From: Candidatus Thorarchaeota archaeon
Lineage (GTDB): Archaea; Asgardarchaeota; Thorarchaeia; Thorarchaeales; Thorarchaeaceae
Assembly: GCA_016841005.1 (NCBI GenBank)
Contig: JAEORG010000147.1
Location: 1-13,003, forward strand
Direction: 5' to 3'
DNA length: 13,003 nt
Part shown: in pieces, positions 1,755-13,003 of the stretch
Layout: every line of letters begins with the position of its first letter
Position numbering within the stretch: the stretch's first letter is position 1
Notes under the pieces: generated by a model
The model's input: the letters and a program-made list of their open reading frames with translations, nothing else
Database searches by the model: none
Told to the model about the DNA's origin: nothing
Made by a program: the position numbers and the translations under genes

Positions 1755-3524
1755 CTATTCCAGTCTACGTCGACTCTGAATGATGAGAGCAATAATGAAC
1801 AATACAAGAGGTAGAGCTGCTATCATTATCGCATAGAGAAAAGTAGTACTAAGGTCTACGGTGTCGTCATGAGTCCAAGGATGAGGAGTTTCAATTCCTA
1901 ATACAAAAGGCCATCCGTTTCGATAAACTAACTCAATCATCACATCCTCTTCATATCTCTCTATTGCGAAGGGTCCAGTAAACAATTCGTTTTCATTCTG
2001 TGAGGGATTCCATTCAGAAACGTCACCCTCAGTAAGCATGAGAGCAGTTGTATTTGATAGAATAGGAATATTGCAGAGATCAATTAGATTCCAGTAGGAA
2101 GATGTATTGTAAGTGATTTCTAGTCGATAATCTGTTGGTGCTAATACTGATGTAATATTCTGAACAAGTGAATGAATAGATAAATCAGGTTTAGATCGAT
2201 ATAGATTGATGGATGCAACTACGTCGTGTGCAGTAATGGATCTATTTGTCAGGTCTAATCTGTCTGGGACAAGCTCAAAGATGATCTTCATATTACCAAT
2301 ACCAACAGATGGATTATCTTCATAGACTTGAACTTGATAGTTCTCTGCTCGCCACAAGAATAAGTTTCCATCAGGACCAACTTTGAGAAGTGTGTCCCAA
2401 ATGTGTTGTTTAAGGAATTCTATTGATTGTAGAAAATCACTTGTTAGAAAATTGCAGTCTTCGAACGGATAAGGTGATGCCCATCTGAATGTCCCTCCAT
2501 ATGGACCACCTATTTGATCGAGTAGACGAATCTTTTGTGAAGTCAGAAATGTGTATACACCAGAGAAGGTTCCATTAACATGGTTTCGAAATTGGTCAAT
2601 CCTGTATGCATCATGGAGGATTCTTTGATACACAGGAACAACTACACAATCATTCAATATATTTTCTTGAAGAGTTGAACAGGCTGAATACACTTCTTCA
2701 AAGTTTGATGCAATGTAAATTTCCTCAATCTGATCTTGATAATCAAAAGACCAATAGAAATTATTCAGAGTGTGCTGTATATATCTCAAATTAAAACCGG
2801 TTATCCCGGTAATTTGAGCTTGAAACCTCTCGAATGTTGGTGACTCATAAATATACCAATCATCCATGGTCACATTGACACCCATCTGTGTAAATGTGTC
2901 AATAACGAAATCAGCCATACCGCTGAATGTGAGTGGCATCAATAAATTAATCTCAGATCCATCTGGAGCTTCGCGGAATCCATCATTATCAATATCCAGA
3001 AAACCTGCATCTTCTAAAGTGATATTTGCTTGAGTAATATTTCCATTATAATATGATACAGGAAATGAGTCTTCAATTGAAAAAACATCTCCCCTCGGCA
3101 CAAAGCTGTCTATTGGAATAGCATCTCCATTCCAAAAATCTCGACACACCTGATACTTATCGATACCCTGTGCAAATGCTCTACGAAAAGCTGTTATATT
3201 TAGAGGGTATTTATCTGCATGAAACAACACCCCACCCCAGCCATTATTCAAAAAGCTAGAAATCTGAATGTTATCAGATTCTGAAAGAGTCTCTATATAC
3301 GAAGGATCAATCATGTCGATAATTGCATCGACTTCATCATCTTGAAGAGCTAAAACTTGTTGATCATTTTGTGTAATAACTTTCATCTGAAGGAGGTCTA
3401 TACTAGGCCCCCAACGCAAATCTTGGTCATCTTCGGGCATTTGGGCATGTGCTAGACCTTGTGTACTTACATTAAATGAAAGGAGAAAGATGAGAGTGAC
3501 TATTGATACAGACCCTCGATACAA
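1755..3524 (-). CDS. Membrane-anchored family 5 (Dpp/Opp-like) solute-binding protein with permuted halves
   Basis: Probably captures peptides, nickel or another solute outside the cell for an ABC importer, though no transporter subunits lie in the window. From TTG 3524 it has 589 residues: a signal peptide (about 1-28), then a region like the second half of SBP_bac_5 (about 35-330), with FRRAFAQGIDK at 113-123 and DIDNDGFREAPDG at 177-189. A region like the first half follows (about 340-540), with GGTFRWA at 343-349, ITAHDV at 430-435, GPF at 517-519 and YRN at 534-536. A single membrane helix (about 559-583) ends in a basic SRRRLE tail. In ordinary family members the order of these halves is reversed. 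Nine N-x-S/T sequons fit an extracellular, glycosylated archaeal protein. Start choice: the purine-rich GGAGGAGGAC lies 5 nt before TTG 3524 and leaves a clean signal peptide; an in-frame TTG at 3545 would make the Shine-Dalgarno coding. Confidence 0.8.
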   Translation of the reverse strand: MYRGSVSIVTLIFLLSFNVSTQGLAHAQMPEDDQDLRWGPSIDLLQMKVITQNDQQVLALQDDEVDAIIDMIDPSYIETLSESDNIQISSFLNNGWGGVLFHADKYPLNITAFRRAFAQGIDKYQVCRDFWNGDAIPIDSFVPRGDVFSIEDSFPVSYYNGNITQANITLEDAGFLDIDNDGFREAPDGSEINLLMPLTFSGMADFVIDTFTQMGVNVTMDDWYIYESPTFERFQAQITGITGFNLRYIQHTLNNFYWSFDYQDQIEEIYIASNFEEVYSACSTLQENILNDCVVVPVYQRILHDAYRIDQFRNHVNGTFSGVYTFLTSQKIRLLDQIGGPYGGTFRWASPYPFEDCNFLTSDFLQSIEFLKQHIWDTLLKVGPDGNLFLWRAENYQVQVYEDNPSVGIGNMKIIFELVPDRLDLTNRSITAHDVVASINLYRSKPDLSIHSLVQNITSVLAPTDYRLEITYNTSSYWNLIDLCNIPILSNTTALMLTEGDVSEWNPSQNENELFTGPFAIERYEEDVMIELVYRNGWPFVLGIETPHPWTHDDTVDLSTTFLYAIMIAALPLVLFIIALIIQSRRRLE

Positions 3525-3545
3525 CTTGTCCTCCTCCACATACAA

Positions 3546-5207: not shown

Positions 5208-5218
5208 ATTCATTCTAG
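5200..5218 (+). repeat. Short direct repeat, right copy (at the end of the Tfx-like gene)
   Basis: This is the partner of the copy at 4611-4628. It covers the last codon and stop of the Tfx-like gene and the stop of the convergent thioredoxin-like gene, so part of its sequence is constrained by coding. That weakens any case for it being a target-site duplication. Confidence 0.35.
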
Positions 5219-5772
5219 ATTCCAAGAGATGTCAAAGTACTATTCATTGCATTTGGTTCCCAAGTTCCTTCATGCATCCAGCGAAGCAACCCATTGGAAT
5301 CAACAACAAGAATTGTGGGAATAAGACTCACACTCAGATATTCGGAGAATGTCCCTGTATCCTCTACTCCACATTCCCAGTCAAAGCCCTCATTTGTCTT
5401 GTAGTTAGCCATCATTTCAGGGGTTTCACTGGCATCAATACTCAATGCGACTATTCTTACGTCTTCTCGAATCGATTGAAATGATTCAAAGAATGGAATC
5501 TGAGATTTACAGGCAGAACACCAAATAGCCATTAATTCGAATATTACTATTTGACCTATCATCTCTTCAGTGTTAATAACTGCTTCATCTGATAGCGTGA
5601 AATTCCAATTAGGTAAGTCGATGTTGTAAGTCACTAGGTCAGAATCTCTCGGTAAATTAGAATGGTCTGTAGGCCAATTTCCTGTGTTTTGCATGAACAT
5701 TATTCCAATAAGAAATCCAGATACAACCAGTGAAATTATTCCAAGAACTGGGATTATCACTCTTGTTTTCAT
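5215..5772 (-). CDS. Membrane-tethered thioredoxin-fold protein (TlpA/ResA-like), WCSAC motif
   Basis: Probably a thiol-disulfide oxidoreductase acting on the outer face of the cytoplasmic membrane. The 185 residues begin with a single hydrophobic anchor (about 5-27) and a short linker. The thioredoxin/AhpC-TSA-like domain (about 52-185) has the redox pair W84-C85-S86-A87-C88 and the conserved cis-proline loop at I151-P152-T153. A further cysteine, C134, is unusual and could be a resolving or structural residue. It is a paralogue of the upstream neighbour (5832-6410): both share YKTN-x3-DW-x2-G, the PT loop and a closing HEG-x-W. The ATG at 5772 fits, with a TATA-like TAATATCC near 5800 giving a very short leader. 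No CcdA/DsbD reductant carrier is in the window. Substrate unknown. Confidence 0.8.
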   Translation of the reverse strand: MKTRVIIPVLGIISLVVSGFLIGIMFMQNTGNWPTDHSNLPRDSDLVTYNIDLPNWNFTLSDEAVINTEEMIGQIVIFELMAIWCSACKSQIPFFESFQSIREDVRIVALSIDASETPEMMANYKTNEGFDWECGVEDTGTFSEYLSVSLIPTILVVDSNGLLRWMHEGTWEPNAMNSTLTSLGI

Positions 5773-5831: not shown

Positions 5832-6410
5832 TTACGTCCTATCCATTAGAGAAATTGTTGATTGAACATCAGAGCTTGTCCATACACCCTCATGGTACAT
5901 CCTGATGTAACCATCAAAATCAATCAGAACCATAGTTGGAGTGTATCGCAAATTGAAATAATATGTAAACGCACTGTTAGTATCAAGTCCATGAGGCCAA
6001 TCAAGTGCATTATTCGTCTTATACTCGTCCATCTGCTGAAAAGTTGTACTAATATCTACACTTAACGAAATGATATGTAGTGACTCACCCATAGCAGAAC
6101 TTAGTGATTGTATCTCTGAATTCTCTGTTTCACAAGCTGGACAAGTCAATGACATCAGATCTACAAGCACAAACTTTCCTTCAAGGCTACTCAATTGTAG
6201 AATTTCTCCATCAGACATCAAGAGCCCCCAATCTGGAGCTTCTCGAGTCTGACCAAAATCAGTGTCAGTTGATAGACTAGGAGTGGATGAAGATCCTCCG
6301 TTTGTGTTTGTATTTCCAACGGGAGTCAATGCAATTGATACACCAATAGCTAGACCTACTGATACTATTGTGATTAATAATCCTGCAATCAATAGTTTCT
6401 CTGTTTCCAT
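5832..6410 (-). CDS. Membrane-tethered thioredoxin-fold protein (TlpA/ResA-like), TCPAC motif
   Basis: Second member of a tandem pair of extracytoplasmic thioredoxin-like proteins. From ATG 6410 it has 192 residues: a membrane anchor (about 6-28), a low-complexity Ser/Thr/Asn/Gly linker (about 29-52), then the thioredoxin fold with T89-C90-P91-A92-C93 and the cis-proline loop T157-P158-T159. The CPAC centre differs from the CSAC centre of its neighbour, so the two probably have different redox potentials or partners. An in-frame TTG at 6440 would add ten residues. ATG 6410 is preferred because a strong TATA box (complement of 6457-6467) places transcription start near 6436, after which TTG 6440 would not be transcribed. 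The two genes are separated by 59 bp and may be transcribed together or from separate promoters. Confidence 0.8.
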   Translation of the reverse strand: METEKLLIAGLLITIVSVGLAIGVSIALTPVGNTNTNGGSSSTPSLSTDTDFGQTREAPDWGLLMSDGEILQLSSLEGKFVLVDLMSLTCPACETENSEIQSLSSAMGESLHIISLSVDISTTFQQMDEYKTNNALDWPHGLDTNSAFTYYFNLRYTPTMVLIDFDGYIRMYHEGVWTSSDVQSTISLMDRT

Positions 6411-6443
6411 AAGACAGTCCCTACTTAATCGGATGTGCAATCA

Positions 6444-7230: not shown

Positions 7231-8061
7231 CTAACTCCAATGAATCTTCTCTCTCAGTTTTTCAAGACCTGGAGAGGAAATCTTTGATTCATTTCCTGAC
7301 GATCCTTCAAGCATCACTGATTCGTCAACAAGAATTAGTTCTAAGAAATTCAACTCAATCAAAGAATCTATTCTAATCTGTTCTAATGGATTCTCGCTAA
7401 TATCTAACCATCTCAGGTTTTTACATTTATCCAATGGTCCAACTTCTAGTTCAGAGAGATTTGTGGACCTCAACCACAATCCCTTGATATTTTCAATACT
7501 TGAGATAATATTCATATCCACTTCGAAAAGGGGATTTCGTTCTAAGTATAATTCTTCAAGATTATCACAGGAGGATAACGGTTCAAGATCTAGTGAGCCA
7601 AGCTCGTTGCTATCTAACCTTAGGAATCTAAGTTTGCTACAAGAAGAGAGAGGACTAAGATCCAGCAAACTTAGTCTGTTTTCGTTCAATGCTATCTCAC
7701 TGATATTAGTACAATTTTCCAAGGGTTGAAGATCAATGTTTGCAAGTGCATTATTATTTAATTTTAGAGTTTCAAGTGATTCAATATTACCAATTGGATG
7801 TAGGTCTATATTGGATATTACATTAAACCCTAGATTTATTTCCTTCAAACTTGAACAACTGGCCAACGGTGTTAGATCTATTGCTCTTGTCATATTTTCA
7901 GATATGTCGACTTTCAATAACTTCTGACATACACTGACATTTTGGAGATCAACTGATTCTAGCAATCTGGCTGAAAGGTCGACAATCTTAGTATCTTCAT
8001 ATATCGTGAGCGTTTTTTCCTCTCCAATTTTGTCAATGTACGGGATTTGCACCTCAGTCAA
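7231..8061 (-). CDS. Cytosolic leucine-rich-repeat protein, eight exact 24-residue repeats
   Basis: A 276-residue protein built from LRRs, with no signal peptide or membrane helix, so probably an intracellular protein-binding scaffold. Units start at residues 45, 69, 93, 117, 141, 165, 189 and 213, each exactly 24 long, with the pattern C/I-x2-L-x2-L-x-L-x2-N-x-L-x2-[LI]-D-L-x-P-L-x2. A partial ninth unit begins at 237. The first 44 residues form an N-terminal cap and the last about 30, ending in GLEKLREKIHWS, a C-terminal cap. The TTG at 8061 is chosen because GGTGGAG (complement of 8070-8076) lies just upstream; a later GTG at 8052 lacks this. A TATA-like AATAAATAC (complement of about 8107-8115) sits further up, so the gene probably has its own promoter. 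Asgard genomes are rich in such proteins. The partner is unknown. Confidence 0.85.
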   Translation of the reverse strand: MTEVQIPYIDKIGEEKTLTIYEDTKIVDLSARLLESVDLQNVSVCQKLLKVDISENMTRAIDLTPLASCSSLKEINLGFNVISNIDLHPIGNIESLETLKLNNNALANIDLQPLENCTNISEIALNENRLSLLDLSPLSSCSKLRFLRLDSNELGSLDLEPLSSCDNLEELYLERNPLFEVDMNIISSIENIKGLWLRSTNLSELEVGPLDKCKNLRWLDISENPLEQIRIDSLIELNFLELILVDESVMLEGSSGNESKISSPGLEKLREKIHWS

Positions 8062-9289: not shown

Positions 9290-9667
9290 CTGAGTAAAGA
9301 TAGCCCTAAGGACAATCCTGAACTCGAGTATCAGAAATGGAAACTTGAGGTCAGACGAGGGGCGCTCTCATTGGCCATTCTTGCTGTCATCTCTGCGGGG
9401 CAGAGCTACGGATATGACATAATGAAGAAACTTAGTGAAACTGGTTACAAAGCTCTCCAAGTAGAACCCAGCACAACATACCCTCTACTAAGAAGATTAG
9501 AACGAAGAGGAATGTTGGAAGGCCATAAGGTAGAGAAAGAGGGTCGTACGCGACGACATTACTACATTACTAGAGAAGGAAGAGAGTATTTGGATAGGAT
9601 GGTTGGATCATGGCAAGACTTGAACAATCAGTTGGAACTTCTGCTGAAGGAGGCGGATCTACTATGA
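9290..9667 (+). CDS. PadR-family transcriptional repressor (start codon uncertain)
   Basis: A cytosolic winged-helix repressor. Numbered from codon 9290 (125 residues), it shows the PadR hallmarks: VRRGALSLAILAVISAGQSY at 21-40, GYDI at 41-44, the recognition region STTYPLLRRLERRGML at 61-76, the wing RTRRHYYITREGREYL at 86-101, and a short C-terminal dimer helix. The protein-like reading extends back to 9290 with no ATG, GTG or TTG after an in-frame TGA at 9284-9286, except TTG 9371, which would cut off the first helix of the fold. GGAG at 9277-9280 lies 9 nt before CTG 9290. The reading therefore needs a CTG start, or a 1-base error that would join it to ATG 9283. It overlaps the next gene by 4 bp (ATGA), so the two are cotranscribed and translationally coupled. 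Confidence 0.85.
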   Translation: MSKDSPKDNPELEYQKWKLEVRRGALSLAILAVISAGQSYGYDIMKKLSETGYKALQVEPSTTYPLLRRLERRGMLEGHKVEKEGRTRRHYYITREGREYLDRMVGSWQDLNNQLELLLKEADLL

Positions 9668-12210
9668 ATGAAGGCGCACTAGCAATCATAGAAGATTATC
9701 TTCAGCTTGTTAGAAGACATTTACCTGATAGCATTGCAGAGGATATACTTGATGAATTGCGTGATTACATGGTTGAGGCTGCAATCGAAGAAGGTAGTGG
9801 TACTCTTAGTATTGAATCCGCAAAACGAACAGTTGCACGCTTTGGTGCACCCTCAGAGGTGGCTGAAGAATATCGCCAATCAATGATGTTGGATGAAGAC
9901 GACGCTAGCCAAGAGGTCGTGGTTGGGGGAGTCCCTAAACGTAAAGGGCCTCCCCATAAAAAAGAGATCTACGGAAAACCCGTGTCTATTCGCAGAGCAT
10001 CTATCCAACTCTTTGGTGTTCTTTTTATTTGGAGCATTATAACATCAATACCAACTGGAATCATTTGGTTCCTTTATTTTCCAATACAACTCTCTATTTT
10101 GGGTATTCTGATTTTCATTCGTGCTTTGCATCTTAGGATACGAAGAAAGACACTTAGTTCAGCTTCATACGCAACTTGGCCCAGCATACTGAGATTCTTC
10201 ACTCTCCCCTTCGGATTATTGCCAAAAGGAAGGAAGAGCCTTCGATATTTAGAATTCATTCTTACCGGGATTATAGCTATTGTGGTAATTCCATCTGTAG
10301 TTTTCTTGATATCAGTACCACTACTAATTGTAAGAATGTGGTATATCAGAAAGAGAATTATTGACATTGATGCTATACTCTTTGTAAAGAGAGATGCCAT
10401 TGTAGAATTTCTTACACTTGTTTCGCTAAATTTTGCAATTGGACTGAGTTTTTGGGCTCAATGGGCTTCTTCACCTTTCGCAATAATCACTGTCTACCCA
10501 TTTGTTGCAGTGGGTGTTGTTATCGGATTCGTATATGGATTATTACTACTATTTCGATTGGCAGGAATCACCCAAGGTTTTTGGTTCGAGAGTATGAATA
10601 TTCGTGAGTCAGATGAAGTCATTGAGATTTCAGAGTACGAGGATGATGAATACATCGAAGAGGATGATGATGAAATAGAAACGAAAGATTACAGTTACAA
10701 AGGTGTGATTTTGAGAACTCAATTCCTGAACATCACTTGGCTTTCTTGTACATTAATTCTTACCGCTGTATTACTCGATGCTGATTCATCATTTCTTGTA
10801 ATAGGTACGATTGGACTTCTCATCACTCAATTGTCAGGAACAATTGGACTCCATCTAGGAAATATAGCAAGGGTAAAGAGAAAGCAAGTGAATCCTGATC
10901 TTGTCAATAATGAAGGATGGTCACGAATTCGGAGATTCTTATCATTTCCTCAAGAGATATTTCCTGATCAGCCAACCTACATGTTACGACTCGATCTAAT
11001 TGTCTCATTAACTATAATCGCAGGTACAATAGCGTTTAATTTCATCAGACTCATGACACCTCTAATTCATGTAATGCTAGTATTCTTCACCATAATAATG
11101 GGTCTCAGATTTATAATTCTAAATCATAGATGGAGTAATCCTGATTCTCAAATGTTCAATCCATTGGAGATTGTTGTGAACTTAGCAGCACTTATCCTTG
11201 GCAATTATACTGCAATTCAGATTCTAGCAGGTTCTCCAAGATGGTATATTTTATACCCCGAAATGCAAACATGGGGAGATGCAGCGTATATGATTTGGAC
11301 GGTATTTAGTATCTATCTGTTATACTGTGTAGTCGCACGTGGTGGTACTTTCTGGATTGACGAAAAGAAGAAATCTGAGGTCAGAACGGAAGATACATCC
11401 GATAAACGGAGAGAATTAAAGAAATCAGACCCTCAGCGAATTGCTGCATTAAGGAAACTAGCACAGAATTACAAGCAAGCCCTTGGAATGATTGTGGCAG
11501 TATATGTAATCCTTGGATTAGTCTCGACTGTCATCTTCTTCTTGAATGGGGGAAGTACCTCACAGAGTTTCTTTATTCTAAACTGGCTCTGGATCATAGG
11601 TCTCTCCATCGTTGCATCAACATTGGGAACAATTCAGTTTGGTTGGAGAAGAATCCGAATTGGAAGAGATATTACACAAACCACGATAGGTAACAGAACA
11701 AGGGCAGAATCAATTATTGACGCCGCAATTATGATTGGTATTCTCACATATTTCCTTGGAACACCATCAATACTGCAGGATATACTCTCAGGAATGCTGA
11801 ATGGTGTAACTGATAATGCAGCTTTTCTGGCAGAGATAAGCGCGTATCTGATTCCATTTGCATATGTCGGCCTGATCATTGCACCTTTCATTCGACTGGT
11901 CGGAGATTTAATTGGAATGAGTTTGGGTGAGAACCACTCAACGAATAGAGCAATAATAGTAAGTGGCGGGTTATTCGTTCTGATCTCCGCTGTAATTTCT
12001 GGTATTTACGGTGGAGTGTGGTTTTATCTAATCCCAGAGGTCTTTTACATTATTACAGTCCCAATAGTGCTTCAAGTTGCTACATCATATATCAAAATAA
12101 TTTCCACCGATTCACCAAGACCAGACCCAAAACTGAGCGAATCAGAAACAGAGGAAAGTGAAAAATCTGGAATGAAACTTGAAGAAAACTACACACCACC
12201 TAAGCAGTGA
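9664..12210 (+). CDS. HAAS-domain polytopic membrane protein, partner of PadR
   Basis: An 848-residue integral membrane protein in the cytoplasmic membrane. Residues about 2-73 resemble the helical HAAS domain that accompanies PadR repressors (IIEDYLQLVRRHL, ILDELRDYMVEAAIEE, AKRTVARFGAPSEVAEEY). A charged linker (about 75-108) leads to roughly 16 membrane helices spread over about 113-300, 354-560, 606-655 and 685-810. A strikingly acidic loop occupies 315-342 and a basic loop 566-600. RFFTLP-x4-P at 177-187 and RFLSFP-x4-P at 424-434 mark an internal duplication. The cytosolic tail is hydrophilic. The start is ATG 9664: AAGGAGG at 9647-9653 lies 10 nt upstream and the ATGA overlap couples it to padR. 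An upstream in-frame ATG (9610) lies inside padR and lacks this site. The probable role is membrane-linked sensing or envelope stress response; no transport motif was recognised. Confidence 0.75.
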   Translation: MNEGALAIIEDYLQLVRRHLPDSIAEDILDELRDYMVEAAIEEGSGTLSIESAKRTVARFGAPSEVAEEYRQSMMLDEDDASQEVVVGGVPKRKGPPHKKEIYGKPVSIRRASIQLFGVLFIWSIITSIPTGIIWFLYFPIQLSILGILIFIRALHLRIRRKTLSSASYATWPSILRFFTLPFGLLPKGRKSLRYLEFILTGIIAIVVIPSVVFLISVPLLIVRMWYIRKRIIDIDAILFVKRDAIVEFLTLVSLNFAIGLSFWAQWASSPFAIITVYPFVAVGVVIGFVYGLLLLFRLAGITQGFWFESMNIRESDEVIEISEYEDDEYIEEDDDEIETKDYSYKGVILRTQFLNITWLSCTLILTAVLLDADSSFLVIGTIGLLITQLSGTIGLHLGNIARVKRKQVNPDLVNNEGWSRIRRFLSFPQEIFPDQPTYMLRLDLIVSLTIIAGTIAFNFIRLMTPLIHVMLVFFTIIMGLRFIILNHRWSNPDSQMFNPLEIVVNLAALILGNYTAIQILAGSPRWYILYPEMQTWGDAAYMIWTVFSIYLLYCVVARGGTFWIDEKKKSEVRTEDTSDKRRELKKSDPQRIAALRKLAQNYKQALGMIVAVYVILGLVSTVIFFLNGGSTSQSFFILNWLWIIGLSIVASTLGTIQFGWRRIRIGRDITQTTIGNRTRAESIIDAAIMIGILTYFLGTPSILQDILSGMLNGVTDNAAFLAEISAYLIPFAYVGLIIAPFIRLVGDLIGMSLGENHSTNRAIIVSGGLFVLISAVISGIYGGVWFYLIPEVFYIITVPIVLQVATSYIKIISTDSPRPDPKLSESETEESEKSGMKLEENYTPPKQ

Positions 12211-12322: not shown

Positions 12323-13003
12323 ATGCGAAAAGAATTACTATTAGTCATTGTAGTATGGCTTCTAGTGATTTTCATACCCGATCCATCTGCAGCCCAGAAT
12401 AATGATGAAAATACAGCCTTTATTCCAGACATGCTGTACGAATCCATACAAATTCTGAATAATTCCGATCTATTTGATCCGGTAACATGTGGGATTGAAG
12501 GATCTTCTGGGGAATTTTCATTTTGTCATACTCAGGATATGGGATTTATTACACTGAATTGGACACATGTAGCAGGTACAGAACTTGAATACAATCTGTC
12601 AAGCTCAACACTTCCAATGGATATCGATTTCTCATATTTTGGTGTTGAGTTCTATTGGAATCAAAATGTACTCCCAACCTTTGCGAATCTCTCATTGTCA
12701 TATAACATCACTACTTCCGGAGATTTTCAATATGACAACTGGCCAGGGATGTATGAGATTTGGACTTGGTTAGAGAGCCCTAATGGCAATTGGTACAGAT
12801 TTGGAACATATTATGGTGGAAGTGACGATCCTTTCTTTCAATGGGGGATGGTTGGTGATTGGGCGACAGATTTGGTGTTTCAGGATTTGATAGATTTGGG
12901 TTCACCTTCATCTGCACGAGTTATCATTGGCCTTGTTCCTTCATGGAGATTTTTCAGTGGTATTTCTTTTTATCCTTGGCAGACATATAATGGCTCAGTC
13001 CTC
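12323..13003 (+). CDS. Secreted protein of unknown function (partial, C-terminus beyond right edge)
   Basis: 227 codons are open to the edge with no stop. The N-terminus is a clear signal peptide: MRKE, a hydrophobic core LLLVIVVWLLVIFIP, and a probable cleavage after PSAA (residue 24). The mature part is rich in Trp, Tyr, Asp and Asn and looks like mainly beta structure. Six N-x-S/T sequons (N46, N79, N91, N122, N128, N223) fit surface glycosylation. C56 and C68 are the only cysteines and could form a disulfide. I recognise no family; aromatic-rich stretches such as YDNWPGMYEIWTWLESP (137-153) recall carbohydrate-binding or S-layer-associated sandwiches, which is speculation. The ATG at 12323 follows a TATA box and no other start gives as complete a signal peptide. 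It has its own promoter and need not belong to the padR operon. Confidence 0.75.
   Translation, partial: MRKELLLVIVVWLLVIFIPDPSAAQNNDENTAFIPDMLYESIQILNNSDLFDPVTCGIEGSSGEFSFCHTQDMGFITLNWTHVAGTELEYNLSSSTLPMDIDFSYFGVEFYWNQNVLPTFANLSLSYNITTSGDFQYDNWPGMYEIWTWLESPNGNWYRFGTYYGGSDDPFFQWGMVGDWATDLVFQDLIDLGSPSSARVIIGLVPSWRFFSGISFYPWQTYNGSVL

Follow-up and report, generated by a model that had tools for sequence, protein, structure and literature searches.

Solute-binding proteins (SBPs) of the DppA/OppA/NikA type (SBP_bac_5, PF00496) can be divided into three segments, named here A (first), B and C (last) after the positions that they occupy in canonical members. Natural circular permutation has been described for other binding-protein folds. 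The permuted glucose-binding protein TpMglB-2 (Tp0684) is reported to retain ligand binding and a ligand-induced change; its authors propose the designation "Type Ic / Cluster Bc" and raise a link with membrane tethering (PMC4990184). TpMglB-2 is a Type I / Cluster B sugar-binding protein in which strands of the N-lobe have been relocated to the C-terminal end; it is a natural circular permutant of an SBP and not a member of SBP_bac_5. CPSARST describes a permutation family of glycine-betaine-binding proteins, molybdate-binding proteins and CysB, found by structure at less than 24% identity (PMC2395249), which again concerns binding-protein folds other than SBP_bac_5. In titles and abstract openings of the open-licence literature, no description of a rotated SBP_bac_5 protein was found. 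Analysis of contig JAEORG010000147.1 of a Candidatus Thorarchaeota archaeon (the window, 13,003 nucleotides in full) revealed a minus-strand gene whose product carries the segments in the order B-C-A. With a probability of roughly 0.85, this product is a natural circular permutant of an SBP_bac_5 (DppA/OppA-type) protein. It shares with the DppA/OppA/NikA-type SBPs the homology of both parts and the fold of the B-C part, and some of its rotated relatives lie near Dpp/Opp-type permease genes. It differs from them in the B-C-A order and a C-terminal membrane helix, and the window copy lacks a W-x-D-G motif.

Segment order of the window protein

Comparison with Pfam assigned the window protein to SBP_bac_5 with an E value of 4.1e-25 (89.1 bits; curated cut-off, 32.4). 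The match was split in two stretches, the better of which aligned residues 47-226 with profile positions 146-320. Against the 7ebm chain of the Protein Data Bank (PDB), query residues 116-214 corresponded to chain residues 267-369 and query residues 434-545 to chain residues 81-188, that is, in swapped order. A profile of 39 sequences (the window protein and 38 of the 120 listed homologues) was then compared with Escherichia coli DppA. Positions 44-347 matched DppA 235-523 (E value, 1.1e-12), and positions 373-568 matched DppA 30-234 (E value, 6.3e-6; probability, 85%). Rearrangement of the same columns gave a single collinear match to DppA 59-523 (E value, 2.2e-19). Pfam scores also rose upon rearrangement, from 89.1 to 101.9 bits for the window protein and from 172.3 to 190.9 bits in the other comparison, with one stretch each.

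The breakpoint lies at position 234/235 of the DppA precursor. The new ends are situated between the family motifs xNPxYW and GPxVDKI, and a short GGPxGGT linker bridges the usual C- and N-termini. The usual A-B-C order is not that of the window protein, which becomes collinear only once rearranged; no single collinear match over residues 30-540 was seen. The first-pass annotation had described swapped halves and a true circular permutation. The two swapped DppA matches, their collinearity after rearrangement and the presence of each half once bear out the former, and the profile comparison together with more than 200 listed homologues in the same order supports the latter.

The gene had been placed at the correct coordinates, to which the minus strand is added here (Table 1). 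In the open reading frame (ORF) listing, the open frame spans TTG 3545 to the stop codon at 1755. TTG 3524 is the likely start codon and is preferred because GGAGGAGGA stands 4 bases before it. Hydropathy analysis of the 589-residue form revealed hydrophobic stretches at residues 6-24, resembling a signal peptide, and 564-582, resembling a membrane helix; the latter agrees with the C-terminal membrane anchor proposed earlier.

Table 1. Parts of the permuted SBP_bac_5 gene in the window
Feature	Position	Strand	Basis or remark
Permuted SBP_bac_5 protein gene	1755..3524	minus	589 aa from TTG 3524; 596 aa from TTG 3545
Ribosome-binding-site-like GGAGGAGGA, 4 bases ahead of TTG 3524	3529..3537	minus	Read in sequence; putative function
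N-terminal signal peptide, residues ~1-27	3444..3524	minus	Hydropathy; predicted cleavage site
Segment B, residues 37-192 (follows segment A in DppA); contains FRRAFAQGIDK and DGFREAPDG	2949..3416	minus	Hidden Markov model (HMM), 218.7 bits; profile comparison with DppA
Segment C, residues 193-340 (usual C-terminal part); one conserved block absent in this copy	2505..2948	minus	HMM, 89.0 bits
Segment A, residues 341-540 (usual N-terminal part); starts PYGGTFRWA	1905..2504	minus	HMM, 210.7 bits; profile comparison with DppA
C-terminal membrane helix, residues 559-588	1761..1850	minus	Hydropathy; AlphaFold model

Distribution of rotated SBP_bac_5 proteins

A protein search with the window protein returned 126 proteins, 120 of them listed. 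The named ones were mostly Candidatus Thorarchaeota, with a few Odin-, Hod-, Loki- or Promethearchaeota. HMMs for the three segments revealed the order B-C-A in 117 of the 120 listed closest homologues, B-C in two and B-A in one. The lone B-A case is the window protein itself, whose C segment was missed by HMMs built from general relatives and found by those of its own clade. In a scan of GTDB contigs, 217 stretches matched and 109 encoded a relative; 80 were kept, representing 76 loci (L001-L076). All of these are named Thorarchaeota save four isolates (two "Lokiarchaeota" and two "archaeon" only), and a full B-C-A gene is present in 75 of them, L069 containing pieces. The profile was matched at 1e-40 by 40 of 119 genomes sampled from the phylum; scoring was limited to 10 candidates per genome, which makes the gene counts low. 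The 12 weakest of the 40 were re-examined: seven carry B-C-A, four have a canonical protein as the best match (G021, G027, G029 and G044), and one carries C-A-B (G035). This gives about 35 of 119 genomes with B-C-A, the 28 stronger ones being judged from the match span alone. Canonical and rotated proteins coexist, as five collinear genes (in G002, G003 and G004) were found beside many rotated ones in the five genomes examined.

The C-A-B protein of G035 (P0121; L140, 1357-3066, plus strand) has a signal peptide and a C-terminal helix. Its breakpoint is close to the position occupied by DGFREAPDG in the window protein, and its gene precedes an OppB-like permease gene by about 100 bases. A search with P0121 gave 4992 matches; the query and the 120 listed (P0121-P0241) comprise 92 A-B-C, 22 C-A-B and six B-C-A proteins and one A-A-B-C protein, in which A is split. 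Most of the C-A-B proteins are nameless; names among the others are Baldrarchaeia, Thermoprotei, Thermoproteota and Desulfurococcaceae. A bacterial B-C-A family was reached through P0181, one of these six B-C-A proteins. Of 924 matches, 120 were listed and 117 were new (P0242-P0358): 107 B-C-A, six A-B-C, two C-A and two B-C. Where given, their names are mostly Firmicutes, Bacillota or Limnochordia and, singly, Geothermarchaeales, Aminivibrio, Sphingobacteriaceae and Pseudomonadota. Judged from these sequence comparisons, the swapped order is a family trait shared by many archaeal and some bacterial relatives. The earlier treatment of the window gene as a single oddity is thus replaced; homologues of the same order, for which it had suggested a search, make up 117 of 120 and 107 of 117 in the two sets.

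Crude hydropathy analysis detected a C-terminal helix in 108 of 117 thorarchaeal B-C-A proteins, 21 of 22 C-A-B proteins, 7 of 113 other B-C-A proteins and 20 of 98 canonical proteins. Membrane anchoring was rejected as a general cause of rotation because only 7 of the 113 other B-C-A proteins have such a helix, compared to 20 of 98 canonical ones.

Giant rotated SBPs of about 2570 aa (L116, 1-7705; L117, 795-8531) contain a single SBP unit followed by a very long extension at the C-terminus, and shorter extended SBPs (P0012, P0026 and P0040) show weak or clear Ig/PKD-like matches in the extension. P0105/P0113 have several membrane helices. Seven consecutive rotated SBP genes on the same strand occupy G102:C173:48461-62194.

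Genomic context and candidate function

At L107-L110, OppC- and OppB-like permease genes precede the rotated gene on its strand, and two ATP-binding cassette (ABC) ATPase genes are oriented divergently from them (Pfam scan of L108 only). L107, L108 and L110 have one OppB-like gene between two long OppC-like genes, and one OppC-like gene was seen in L109. Among the 65 rotated genes of L001-L076 with 3 kb available on both sides, a permease gene is present within 3 kb of 12; therefore, the rotated proteins are most likely solute-binding subunits, many of them orphans. The signal peptide would export the protein, and the C-terminal helix would hold it outside the membrane. The rotated chain would close into a normal two-lobe trap, bind a peptide- or oligosaccharide-like solute and hand it to a Dpp/Opp-type ABC importer. 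Orphan paralogues such as the window copy may share an importer encoded elsewhere.

In the OppC-like permeases of the rotated-SBP operons, about 270 additional residues separate the first membrane helix from the second. Of the 46 permease ORFs located at most 5 kb from a rotated gene, 26 matched a profile of this extra domain; seven of the 26 are shorter than 480 aa, several being cut copies from overlapping loci, and all 20 nonmatching ORFs are shorter than 480 aa. The profile matched 0 of 11 permease ORFs in loci with canonical proteins (three are cut copies of others, leaving eight genes) and 2 of 11 further ORFs; these two (L038 and L111) have no rotated gene up to 5 kb away on the piece analysed. 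It is our guess that the extra domain helps the docking of the rotated SBP.

The window itself encodes, at 12323-13003 (plus strand, cut by the window end), a secreted-looking protein homologous to the OppC extra domain (BLASTP, 47/179 identities, E value of 9e-17; profile E value, 2.4e-19). Also on the plus strand, a PadR-like regulator gene (9371-9667) overlaps the gene of an 866-aa membrane protein with a HAAS domain (9610-12210). The minus strand encodes a leucine-rich-repeat protein (7231-8061) and two adjacent secreted-looking proteins (5215-5772 and 5832-6440), the first of which matches redoxin and the second of which is similar by eye.

Status of the window copy and origin of the rotation

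Several observations weigh against the reading of the window gene as a permuted SBP of this kind. In an alignment of 112 proteins (the window protein and 111 of the 119 other listed homologues), the window copy is the least similar to the consensus (36%; middle value, 64%). In place of the W-[ST]-D-G motif of segment A, whose W and D are each present in 111 of 112 rows, it has D-L-T-N, and it lacks 32 well-occupied columns, including most of the DxDWLAYE...NFPxxRN block. Permease and ATPase HMMs matched no ORF of the window, and 53 of the 65 testable rotated genes have no permease gene within 3 kb. For the relative P0002, the best PDB score was barely higher after rearrangement (78.4 to 80.7 bits), with one stretch (query 72-487 to 4pft chain 67-493) in place of two swapped pieces. 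Finally, closure of the two halves is predicted from the confidence of the model, and the structure aligners did not extend to segment A.

The missing block lies where DppA has D436, a residue that PDB entry 8z1z names as mutated. D436 was considered as the counterpart of a conserved ligand Asp. In the profile alignment it is adjacent to the conserved Asp of the family FDVDW block but does not coincide with it, and therefore no ligand is claimed. The closest listed homologue of the window protein has 35% identity. The window copy may be divergent with a changed ligand, or it may be decaying. Since it is both an orphan and the most divergent of the 112, its own function is uncertain. That this copy, as opposed to the family, is a decaying paralogue without function would fit its divergence, its motif and block losses and the lack of a nearby permease; we nevertheless hold this to be rather unlikely, because the 589-codon frame is open, with a signal peptide, an anchor and a ribosome-binding-like site, and the predicted structure is confident.

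To place the rotations, a tree of 89 rows and 466 rearranged columns was calculated; its rows were selected by identity limits from 361 three-part sequences, with gappy rows dropped and the window row added by hand. Many of its branches are long, and single-part trees are poorly resolved. The thorarchaeal B-C-A proteins form one clade (13 rows; support, 100/99), adjoined by the canonical Asgard proteins canL137-139, and the other B-C-A proteins form another (21 rows; 99/95). A constraint uniting all B-C-A proteins was not rejected in the approximately unbiased test (p-AU, 0.294). The 11 C-A-B rows require four changes, two of them forced by starred branches. A single C-A-B clade was modestly rejected (p-AU, 0.031), for a constraint group set by segment order, though a quick tree had been seen beforehand. 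The tree thus favours more than one origin of C-A-B.

The nearest outside rows to the thorarchaeal clade differ between the parts: they are other permuted proteins for A and the canonical Asgard proteins canL141 and canL137-139 for B+C. Such a difference would fit a chimera in which B-C and A came from two different SBP genes. This origin appears improbable, because only 10 of 86 inner branches are starred in the A-part tree, so that the difference is weakly supported, and because the 13 thorarchaeal rows form one clade in both part trees (Shimodaira-Hasegawa-like approximate likelihood ratio test, 100 and 99).

Permutation via tandem duplication, as suggested earlier, is a plausible route. 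The data did not support it: no two-copy protein was present among 165 distinct part-carrying ORFs, and the tails of 363 permuted sequences contained no credible remnant of a duplicated segment. The protein searches list proteins up to 1.75 times the query length, so that longer two-copy forms could be missed. The best tail match (E value, 0.015) is the end of A itself, and the best B-type tail match has an E value of 0.77. Two B matches in each of L151, L155, L156 and L159 were discarded as the first and last parts of a single B split by an insert; the head matches in L156 and L159, considered as duplication relics, are the same split B.

The AlphaFold model of the window protein is a confident single chain (predicted local distance difference test, 88.1; predicted template modelling score [pTM], 0.82), and structural alignment of the model revealed the SBP_bac_5 fold in the B-C part. 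The earlier proposal of one tethered lobe pair agrees with this model and with the C-terminal helix, while its two-lobe closure is covered only in part, as order-bound alignment covered about residues 28-337, the aligned ranges ending at about residue 339, with model confidence high beyond. A short linker could favour swapping of the halves between two chains of a dimer. Exchange of this kind is very improbable, given that the predicted single-chain models are confident (pTM, 0.82 and 0.87) and that both usual ends of DppA belong to lobe I. An assembly artefact, conceivable for a protein standing alone on a 13003-base contig, is practically negligible and is refuted for the family by the more than 200 listed proteins on other contigs that share the order.

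Returning to natural permutation, we tentatively propose, at slightly worse than even odds, the following history. SBP_bac_5 would have rotated once or twice at B-C-A (in Thorarchaeota and in the Bacillota/Limnochordia-type family) and at least twice at C-A-B, and the tethered thorarchaeal form would have coevolved with an OppC permease bearing an extramembrane docking domain of about 270 residues.

The database name "ABC transporter substrate-binding protein" hides the rotation. With A-B-C, B-C-A and C-A-B forming a natural series within one family, the effects of rotation and tether position on binding, closing and importer docking can be tested directly. The finding also bears on organic-matter uptake by Thorarchaeota, because most SBP_bac_5 genes in the five genomes examined are of the rotated kind.
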